A DNA stretch of 23,714 nt, from the IMG/VR virus record IMGVR_UViG_3300038701_002134, positions 1 through 23,714 of that record. The stretch is one strand, 5' to 3'. Below are positions 7,647 through 10,529 of the stretch, in pieces. The position numbers and the translations under genes were made by a program. The DNA comes from a virus. Below the pieces are notes generated by a model. It had not been told where the DNA came from. It did not search any database and worked only from the letters and a program-made list of their open reading frames with translations. Within the stretch, counting starts at the first letter, position 1; every line of letters starts with the position of its first letter.

Positions 7647-8057
7647 ATGGCTGGTTTTAACGGACGGGAGTTGACCGTCGATTTCGATAGCACAACCCTT
7701 GTAGGGGTGCGCACCCGGGGGCTCTCAATCTCTGCAGAGCCTGTGGACGTGACCACGGACGACGACAGCGGGGAGCGCACGCTTTTGGCTGATCCGGGAT
7801 CGCGTAGCGCTGAGATCAGCGTCGCGGGCATTACCTCTGATGAGGTTCTTATTGCAGAGATCCTTTCCGGGATCACCGGGCGCACGCTGAAAGGCGCACA
7901 GGTCAACCTGCCGTCCAATCTGGCAACCCCGGGAAATGTGACGTTCGACGCCTTTGTGTCGAGTGTCGAAATCACGGGCGAGCATGATGGCGCGGTCGAG
8001 TTTACCGGCACCCTCATGAGCGCCGGGGCGATCACCTACACCGCGTCGGCGGCGTAA
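7647..8057 (+). CDS. Major tail (tube) protein
   Basis: This 136-residue protein is the likely tail-tube subunit. It is beta-rich, with the family layout of a G-R-E-L-T-V-D-F strand, a long beta-hairpin (V-D-V-T-T-D-D-D-S-G-E-R-T-L-L), an S-A-E-I-S-V-A-G-I segment and a final V-E-F-T-G-T-L-M-S-A-G strand, matching short TP901-1-like and GTA-like tail-tube proteins. It starts 3 nt after the tail terminator with AGGAGG upstream. The chaperone and tape measure genes follow in the standard order. The subunit is short and shows no extra Ig-like domain. Confidence 0.88.
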   Translation: MAGFNGRELTVDFDSTTLVGVRTRGLSISAEPVDVTTDDDSGERTLLADPGSRSAEISVAGITSDEVLIAEILSGITGRTLKGAQVNLPSNLATPGNVTFDAFVSSVEITGEHDGAVEFTGTLMSAGAITYTASAA

Positions 8058-8083: not shown

Positions 8084-8482
8084 ATGCGGGATTTGACAAT
8101 CGAGGCGGCAACCGGGGAGACGCACACCCTCACTGCCACTTGGAAAGCAAGCATCGAGATCGCCGATAAGGTCGGCGATCCACTCATGATCGCGCGGGAG
8201 AGCGCACTCGAAAACGCCATGTTGGCGGCGCGAATGCCGTACCAACCCAAATTCTCATTTACCGCCAAGAACGTCGCGCAGGTGGTCCATATCGGTCTGC
8301 GGGCGGCGGGGTCCGACATGACCATCGAAGACGTGCAGAATATGGTTTTCGACAAAGGGCTCCTGCACGCGCAGCTGTGGGCGGCCGACTATATCGCGCT
8401 CCTAGTTACCCCCAAGCCGAACAAGATCGGCGATGATGTGATTGATGAGGTGGACGACGCGACCGAAGCGGGAAACGCCTGA
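8084..8482 (+). CDS. Tail assembly chaperone gpG-like protein (zero-frame product)
   Basis: This 132-residue protein lies between the tail-tube and tape measure genes, the position of lambda gpG. It is an alpha/beta protein with an N-terminal strand pair (L-T-I-E-A, H-T-L-T-A-T-W) followed by helices, and an acidic end (D-D-V-I-D-E-V-D-D-A-T-E). Such chaperones coat the tape measure protein and recruit tail-tube subunits. The zero frame ends at TGA (8480-8482), one codon after a GGGAAAC slippery heptamer. Ribosome site AGGAGAG lies close upstream. See the fusion product entry for the alternative translation. Confidence 0.85.
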   Translation: MRDLTIEAATGETHTLTATWKASIEIADKVGDPLMIARESALENAMLAARMPYQPKFSFTAKNVAQVVHIGLRAAGSDMTIEDVQNMVFDKGLLHAQLWAADYIALLVTPKPNKIGDDVIDEVDDATEAGNA

Positions 8483-8739
8483 CGCTCCAAGGCTGGCGCG
8501 GTCGGGTTGAATATCTCTACACGACTGCCCGGGTTTGGGGCATACAACCATCGGAATTCTGGGGTATGTCGCCTTGGGAGTTTTGGCTAGAATTTGACCG
8601 CCGCGTCGACGATCATAGGCGCGCAGAACAAATGCAGGTAGGCGGCAAGTCCGCCCCGGCGTCGGCAGTCCGAGAGGCGCAGGCCACGGCCCGGCGACTG
8701 CACAAGGCCAAGATGCAGAAGAAGGAGGCCGCCAAGTGA
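8084..8739 (+). CDS. Tail assembly chaperone gpG-T fusion by -1 programmed frameshift
   Basis: A -1 shift at 8470-8476 joins the first 131 codons of the gpG-like gene to an 87-codon extension ending at TGA 8737-8739, giving a 218-residue protein. The extension frame has no start codon upstream of its conserved part: its first ATG (8566) falls inside the motif, so expression needs the shift. The extension contains L-Y-T-T-A-R-V-W-G-I-Q-P-S-E-F-W-G-M-S-P-W-E-F, a pattern typical of tail assembly chaperones (x-P-x-E-F-W-x-L-T-P-x-E), then a basic helical tail. Its end overlaps the tape measure GTG start by 4 nt. This reproduces the lambda gpG/gpGT design; the shift frequency cannot be read from sequence. 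Confidence 0.85.
8470..8476 (+). other. Slippery heptamer GGGAAAC for -1 ribosomal frameshift
   Basis: In the zero frame the codons read gcG GGA AAC, exactly the X-XXY-YYZ pattern. GCC TGA follows, so the zero-frame stop lies 4-6 nt downstream of the heptamer. Lambda uses GGGAAAG at the equivalent place. No long stem-loop is obvious just downstream by eye. Confidence 0.88.
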
Positions 8740-10529
8740 CAACCCTCGCCGCCCTACACGCCCGGATCACAGGCGACGCCAGCGATTACGTCGCCACGAC
8801 GAACGAGGCCGGAAAGGCCACTGACACTTTCGTCAACAAGGTCGGCCGGTCGCCAACGCAGGGCGCAACCGGGGCAATGGGTCGCCTCAAAACATCCCTT
8901 ACCGGCCTGTCACGCTCACAGGGGGCGCGAATGCTTCCTCTGCAGCTGTCACAGGTAGCGCAGCAGGCGGCGGCCGGTACGCCAGTTCTTAACGCCCTTG
9001 CGATCCAAGCGGCGGATATCGGTCTGATCTTTGGCACGGTCGGGGCCATCGCGGGGACGCTGGCAACCGTCGCCATGCCGGTTCTGATTGGGGCGTTCTC
9101 TGCCACTGAGGAGGAGGCAGAGACGCTCAACGAGCGGCTTGATGGGTTCCGGGCGGCACTTGAGCGGGGCACAGAGGCGGCAGAGATCGCACAGACCCCG
9201 CTGCATGAATTGCGCAAGACATACGGCGCCCTCGCTGAGCAGATCCAGTTTACCGCCCGGATCGCGGCACAGGCGGCGTTTTCAGACGCGATCCGAGAGT
9301 TTGACGCAGCGGTCGACGAATTGGAGCCGACCCTAGGGGCCCTCAGCGGCGCCCTGCAGGAGTATGGCAAACGTTCCGAGGAACTCGCGATCATCCAACG
9401 GACCCTAGGGGAGCGTACACTGTTGAACGCCTCGGCCTTTGATGAGGCAGAGGCAGCGCTTGATCGCGCGGCCGCCAAACTGGGTGAAGTGGCGGCCACT
9501 ATGGGCCTATCGAGCGGCGAGGCGGTGCGGCTGCGCGCCGCTCTGGATAAGGTCGCAGGCGCGCAGGGCATGGAGGCCGTAGGGGTCGCGGCCGGTGAAG
9601 CGCTCGAACAGATTACCGGGATGTATGATGAGACGCAGAACATCCCGCCGGAGGTCGCCAAGGTCATTGACCAATTGCGGGCCATGCAGGTAGAGGCCGC
9701 AAAGGCTACGGCCCAAATGGCGGCTCTCGCGGACGAGAGCGAGCGTGTAGCGAATGCAGGCGCGGGCGACAAACCCAGCGGCAAACAGACAGACAGCGAC
9801 GATAAGGGGGGCGATAAGGGCACTTCCGACGTAACGCCCCCGGAAACCGGTCGCGGCGGCGGCGGCCGGGCACGATCTCAGGACACATTTCAGCGGGATC
9901 TTGAACGCCTGCGCGAACAACTCGCGACAGAGATCGAAGTCGAACAGGAGATGAACGACGCCCGGCTCGAAATGCTGCGGCAGGCGCACGAAAACGAACT
10001 CCTGACCCAACAAGAATATCAAGACTTGATGGAGCGCGAAAAGAAGCGCCACGCAGAGCGCATGGCGGAGATCGACGTCTGGCAATACGGCACGTCTCTG
10101 GACAAGTTGGAGACGTTCCTAGGCGGGATGGCTACTGCATTTGCATCCGGCAACGAACGCATGATGCAGATCGCTAAGGTGTTCGGCGCTGGCGAAGCCT
10201 TGATCAATGCTTGGCGGACCTATTCGCAGGTCATGGCAGACCCGTCTTTGCCGTGGTATGCGAAACTACCTGCAGCGCTCTCGCTTTTCGGGTCGGCCGT
10301 GCAAGCCGTTAAGGCTATCCAAGGCGTCGGCAAGGGCGGATCAGGACAGCGGGCCGCAGGAGGTGGCGCAGCGGGCGGGAATGAAGCGCAACCCGTACAG
10401 GCAGAGGCACAGCGGCAGAACCGCACGCTTACCTTGATCGGGGATCGGTTCAACCGGCAACAGGCGATCCAGATCGCCGAATTCATGAACGACGGGACAG
10501 ACGACGGCCTGCGGATCAGGGGGAGATAA
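8736..10529 (+). CDS. Tail tape measure protein
   Basis: This 597-residue protein sets tail length. It begins with GTG at 8736, which overlaps the gpT-frame stop (GTGA) and has AAGGAGG 6 nt upstream. The N-terminus has the usual L-x-A-R-I-T-G-D-A-S-D-Y-V motif. Residues 95-121 are a long hydrophobic segment (I-G-L-I-F-G-T-V-G-A-I-A-G-T-L), as in many tape measures. Long Ala/Glu-rich helical stretches follow, a Gly/Asp/Lys-rich linker lies near 340-380, and a charged coiled coil spans about 385-450. The C-terminal A-W-R-T-Y-S-Q-V-M-A-D-P-S-L-P-W-Y-A-K-L-P-A-A-L segment is a common tape-measure end. At about 1.5 angstroms per residue the tail would be near 90 nm. Confidence 0.92.
   Translation: MTTLAALHARITGDASDYVATTNEAGKATDTFVNKVGRSPTQGATGAMGRLKTSLTGLSRSQGARMLPLQLSQVAQQAAAGTPVLNALAIQAADIGLIFGTVGAIAGTLATVAMPVLIGAFSATEEEAETLNERLDGFRAALERGTEAAEIAQTPLHELRKTYGALAEQIQFTARIAAQAAFSDAIREFDAAVDELEPTLGALSGALQEYGKRSEELAIIQRTLGERTLLNASAFDEAEAALDRAAAKLGEVAATMGLSSGEAVRLRAALDKVAGAQGMEAVGVAAGEALEQITGMYDETQNIPPEVAKVIDQLRAMQVEAAKATAQMAALADESERVANAGAGDKPSGKQTDSDDKGGDKGTSDVTPPETGRGGGGRARSQDTFQRDLERLREQLATEIEVEQEMNDARLEMLRQAHENELLTQQEYQDLMEREKKRHAERMAEIDVWQYGTSLDKLETFLGGMATAFASGNERMMQIAKVFGAGEALINAWRTYSQVMADPSLPWYAKLPAALSLFGSAVQAVKAIQGVGKGGSGQRAAGGGAAGGNEAQPVQAEAQRQNRTLTLIGDRFNRQQAIQIAEFMNDGTDDGLRIRGR

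Follow-up and report, generated by a model that had tools for sequence, protein, structure and literature searches.

A lambda-type G/GT tail assembly chaperone pair, probably made by programmed -1 ribosomal frameshifting, in an under-annotated phage family

The 23.7-kb virus record analysed here, referred to below as the window (the whole stretch of 23,714 nucleotides), carries a siphophage-like structural module that encodes, in order, a prohead protease, an HK97-type capsid protein, a connector, head completion and tail completion proteins, the tail tube, a gpG-like ORF, a T frame and the tape measure. The genes considered here are all on the plus strand. The major tail (tube) protein gene (7647–8057) matches Pfam Phage_tail_2 (E 2.5e-17) and PHROG 1407, major tail protein, and is followed by the gpG-like tail assembly chaperone ORF, 132 aa in the zero frame at 8084–8482. 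A 597-aa ORF with a GTG start (8736–10529) is identified as the tape measure protein gene by PHROG 9483 (tail length tape measure, E 1e-17) and by tblastn matches to annotated phage tape measures. Between these two ORFs, the frame -1 to gpG, designated T, is open for 87 codons and a TGA (8476–8739), and this TGA (8737–8739) overlaps the tape-measure GTG (8736–8738), as stated in a preliminary description of this DNA. The gene order is therefore tail tube, G, T, tape measure, with T in the -1 frame relative to G, the lambda-type G/GT layout. T is absent from a mechanically generated list of ORFs and, as also described previously, has no early start codon; the first ATG, GTG or TTG in the frame is the ATG at 8566, codon 31, and the closest relatives likewise have none of these codons near the start of T. 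On the minus strand, opposite G/T, there is a probably spurious 122-codon GTG ORF (8402–8770) that a gene caller might accept instead of T.

The gpG ORF ends with GCG GGA AAC GCC TGA, so that G_GGA_AAC (8470–8476), the -1 shift site, is in X_XXY_YYZ phase. The three bases GCC separate the heptamer from the stop codon at 8480–8482, and the distance of four bases given in the preliminary description holds when the count runs to the first base of the stop. After a backward slip of one base, reading would continue CGC CTG ACG CTC CAA... from 8476, and joining 131 gpG residues to the 87 residues of T gives a GT fusion of 218 aa, the length originally proposed. Across the junction this product would read ...DDATEAGN-RLTLQGWR..., and its mass would be about 24.4 kDa as compared with 14.3 kDa for gpG. 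Within the window, 17.3 kb is likely to be coding, and XXXYYYZ occurs in phase six times in it. Five of these heptamers open 0 to 36 codons of -1 frame, whereas the site at 8470 opens 87 and is 3 nt from the stop. Much stronger evidence against a chance occurrence comes from the comparison with relatives.

As tblastn searches of annotated phages with G and T gave no matches, relatives were taken from IMG/VR contigs, identified by searches with T (up to 80 loci per scan) and so selected on T rather than on the heptamer. The window and 77 relatives provided 78 viral pairs with distinct junction sequences. A canonical in-phase X_XXY_YYZ heptamer is present in the overlap in 54 of these 78 pairs, as compared with a mean of 6.6 and a maximum of 13 when the zero-frame codons were shuffled; the loci are related and so the counts are not independent trials, and in AT-rich relatives poly-A tracts raise the number of chance heptamers. 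Heptamers in the other two phases are far less frequent, at 16 loci in total. In a further 23 pairs the zero-frame stop comes immediately after GGGGGAG (21) or GGGGGAA (2), so that a recognised slip site is present in 77 of the 78 pairs. The sole exception is L143 (IMGVR_UViG_3300025236_000001), in which G ends CCG GAA AAG TAG. Loss of the heptamer from relatives that keep both frames had been named at the outset as an observation that would count against frameshifting; instead, all but this one pair retain a slip site. In the nearest relatives the heptamer is GGGAAAC (Gly-Asn) or AAAAAAC (Lys-Asn), so that a Gly residue is changed to Lys with the slipperiness kept, and the zero-frame stop that follows the heptamer after 3 nt in the window follows it after 30 nt. 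With the stop distance variable and the heptamer constant, conservation applies to the slip site rather than to the end of gpG. GGGGGAG is an unusual slip site, outside XXXYYYZ. It is invariant directly before the stop of the G ORF in L010–L013, L015, L017, L019–L024, L026–L028, L031–L036, L038 and L082; the rare GGGGGAA variant is found, for example, in L135 and L156.

T has relatives that are 63–67% identical to the window sequence, and the motif WGIQPSEFWxMSPxEFW is conserved. As had been suggested, the extension was searched with profiles for tail assembly chaperones, and a distant match to PF09550 (Phage_TAC_6) was obtained. For the window T this match is weak (14.6 bits, E 0.044; curated cut-off 23.4 bits), but all 17 aligned T homologues match, the best at 2.6e-5. 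Similarly, gpG from the window matches PF11836 (Phage_TAC_11/GTA-gp10) with 22.7 bits (E 1e-4; curated cut-off 27.8 bits), as do 13 of 17 aligned gpG homologues, the best at 7e-6. With the window scores below both cut-offs, T and gpG are distant relatives, and not members, of these families. Searches of NCBIfam gave no matches, and those of PHROGs with T gave only matches of unknown function. A profile scan of genome contigs with the T alignment returned three loci only; the G alignment was too variable for use in scanning. The structure of gpG is predicted with confidence (pLDDT 88), and the model matches, with weak E-values, predicted viral structures that include several annotated tail assembly chaperones and the GT of phage N15. 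No credible match to the gpG model was obtained in fold searches of the PDB, but novelty of the fold does not follow from this.

Sequence differences in the T frame between the window and its closest relatives are chiefly at third codon positions. The dN/dS values are mostly 0.13–0.25, with two pairs at 0.46 and 0.67 and one saturated pair for which the ratio could not be estimated, and, judged from these comparisons, the T frame is under purifying selection. It is almost inconceivable that T is an unexpressed remnant of an in-frame fusion gene, generated by decay or by a sequencing error: a one-base difference would indeed restore a single frame, but the -1 arrangement is present at varied positions in 77 other contigs, all but one with a slip site, and the T frame is under purifying selection.

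Folding of the RNA downstream of the heptamer, proposed earlier as a check for a stimulator, identified an extended 58-nt hairpin at 8484–8541 (-34.7 kcal/mol, z -4.6, from a fold of 8477–8546), with nothing comparable in the 70 nt upstream. Five relatives likewise have the hairpin (z -4.2 to -6.5). The consensus of seven sequences has 24 pairs, with 92% of cells paired and six pairs that are doubly changed, that is, compensatory. There are 11 doubly changed cells, as compared with 3.6 in shuffles (0 of 500 reach 11) and 0–4 when the partner was slid. The spacer between the heptamer and the hairpin (8477–8483), which contains the gpG stop, is 7 nt and so within the usual range of 5–9 nt between a heptamer and its stimulator (PMC5009743). 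Hairpin 8484–8541 is thus a probable frameshift stimulator. The lineage with GGGGGAG has a different hairpin, of 10 pairs, that starts 5 nt after the slip site and has 17 doubly changed cells as compared with 5.6 in shuffles. Slippage by RNA polymerase, rather than by the ribosome, could also change the frame, and A-runs of seven or more might permit transcriptional slippage in some distant relatives. The site in the window has only GGG and AAA runs, however, and a hairpin in the translated RNA at a distance of 7 nt fits ribosomal shifting, so that a transcriptional origin is extremely unlikely here.

T could, alternatively, be a separate gene translated by termination-reinitiation, either from a non-standard start such as the CTG at 8479–8481, which overlaps the gpG stop in the window (CTGA), or from the internal ATG at 8566. 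There is a precedent, as many homologous pairs in gene transfer agent (GTA)-like loci use an ATG or GTG that overlaps the upstream stop. Reinitiation at CTG 8479 is rejected for lack of conservation of the codon, which in relatives is replaced by GCA, AGA or another triplet, and the stop of the relatives is ~30 nt further on. A start at ATG 8566 would remove conserved residues of the T domain, and with either start there would be no reason for the heptamer and hairpin to be conserved. Reinitiation is, overall, very unlikely.

The conserved slip site, the chaperone homology and the covarying hairpin support the fusion originally proposed, and we assign a probability of about 0.93 to G and T in the window being a lambda-type G/GT tail assembly chaperone pair expressed by -1 programmed ribosomal frameshifting. 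Most ribosomes would translate gpG and terminate at the TGA at 8480. A minority, paused at hairpin 8484–8541 with tRNA-Gly and tRNA-Asn on GGA AAC, would re-pair one base upstream, on GGG AAA, and then read the -1 frame to 8739, so that the 218-residue GT fusion would be made at a low level beside gpG. If the pair works as in lambda (PMC5009743), gpG would coat the tape measure protein, and the T part of GT would bring in the tail tube protein, with the tube then polymerising around the tape measure.

Searches for PF09550 and PF11836 in alphaproteobacterial genomes gave 54 non-identical, -1-overlapping pairs, a set that includes two phage records, L255 and L256. Twelve of the loci were inspected; their surroundings are mostly GTA-like, with a following ORF of about 200–240 aa. 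Where T has no ATG, GTG or TTG, an in-phase slip site, mostly CCCTTTC, is present in 20 of 22 pairs (those in L101 and L113, 33 and 48 nt from the stop, are weak evidence). Where T has an ATG or GTG, nearly all of which overlap the g10 stop, there is no slip site in any of 28 pairs, and where TTG is the only start at the g10 stop, there is a slip site in 4 of 4. The association of start codon with slip site has a Fisher p of 6e-9 to 2e-13, with lineages that are not independent. The heptamer pattern, in which Y was initially A or T, was widened after AAACCCT was seen, and the AAACCCT part of this result is therefore post hoc. CCCTTTC has, in addition, a coding role, as CCC TTT specifies the conserved Pro-Phe of PFPW; from codon usage, the chance per locus is 0.06–0.3. 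The GTA-like loci L085–L114 and L225–L256 are thus of two types: those with an ATG or GTG on the g10 stop lack a slip site, and those without a start have CCCTTTC, GGGAAAG or AAACCCT. Frameshifting is not mentioned for g10/g10.1 in the searchable GTA literature. Some alphaproteobacterial GTAs may well make a frameshifted g10-g10.1 chaperone, with T having switched between -1 frameshifting (at CCCTTTC, GGGAAAG or AAACCCT, with no T start) and coupling through an ATG or GTG on the g10 stop, and with frameshifting, together with a dedicated covarying hairpin, retained in the phage family of the window. The data suggest frameshifting in GTAs as a good lead, and not as a result.

Gene callers miss or truncate T in the family to which the window belongs, and with the slip sites and hairpins known, GT could be correctly annotated in many phages. 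In the two phage records noted above (L255, MW462191.1; L256, MW091529.1), T is deposited as a short separate hypothetical gene that starts inside the T frame; AAACCCT ends right before the G stop in both, which suggests missed frameshift fusions. The GTA lead would allow a direct test of whether the frameshift, which sets the G:GT ratio for assembly to tail length, has been retained or lost in domesticated phage particles.

Several known systems can be compared with G/T of the window. A functional analogue of G/GT, SPP1 gp17.5/17.5*, has a putative -1 shift at UUUUUUC (PMC6316719), a different heptamer, and no sequence match to it was found in the searches. GGGGGAA is the 'fivetwo' motif of PRFect, reported for the tail chaperones of SEA-PHAGES (PMC10885494). 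In the related lineage within the family of the window, the zero-frame stop is directly preceded by one of GGGGGAG and GGGGGAA; unlike in these chaperones, GGGGGAG predominates and a covarying hairpin follows 5 nt downstream, and the window itself has a canonical heptamer. Both halves of the window pair are distantly related to g10/g10.1 of RcGTA (rcc01692/rcc01693, alias g10.5; PF11836 and PF09550) and precede the tape measure in the same order, and in RcGTA-type loci T is usually in the -1 frame relative to g10, as in the window. In many GTA-like clusters, however, g10.1 has its own ATG or GTG overlapping the g10 stop, where the window has no start and a slip site instead, and the tape measure is 597 aa in the window as opposed to about 200–240 aa in GTA-like loci. 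Lambda gpG/gpGT has its -1 shift at G_GGA_AAG. The gene order of tail tube, G, T and tape measure is the same, in both G is short and has a -1 extension, T has no start of its own, and the heptamers are of one class, differing only in the last base (G_GGA_AAG versus G_GGA_AAC), with Asn rather than Lys as the A-site tRNA in the window. The searches detected no sequence match to lambda G/T and, unlike lambda, the window has a strong, covarying hairpin 7 nt downstream of the heptamer. The G/T pair is, then, an ordinary lambda-type system in an under-annotated family; the new elements are the hairpins, GGGGGAG as the slip site of one lineage, and the possible extension to GTAs.
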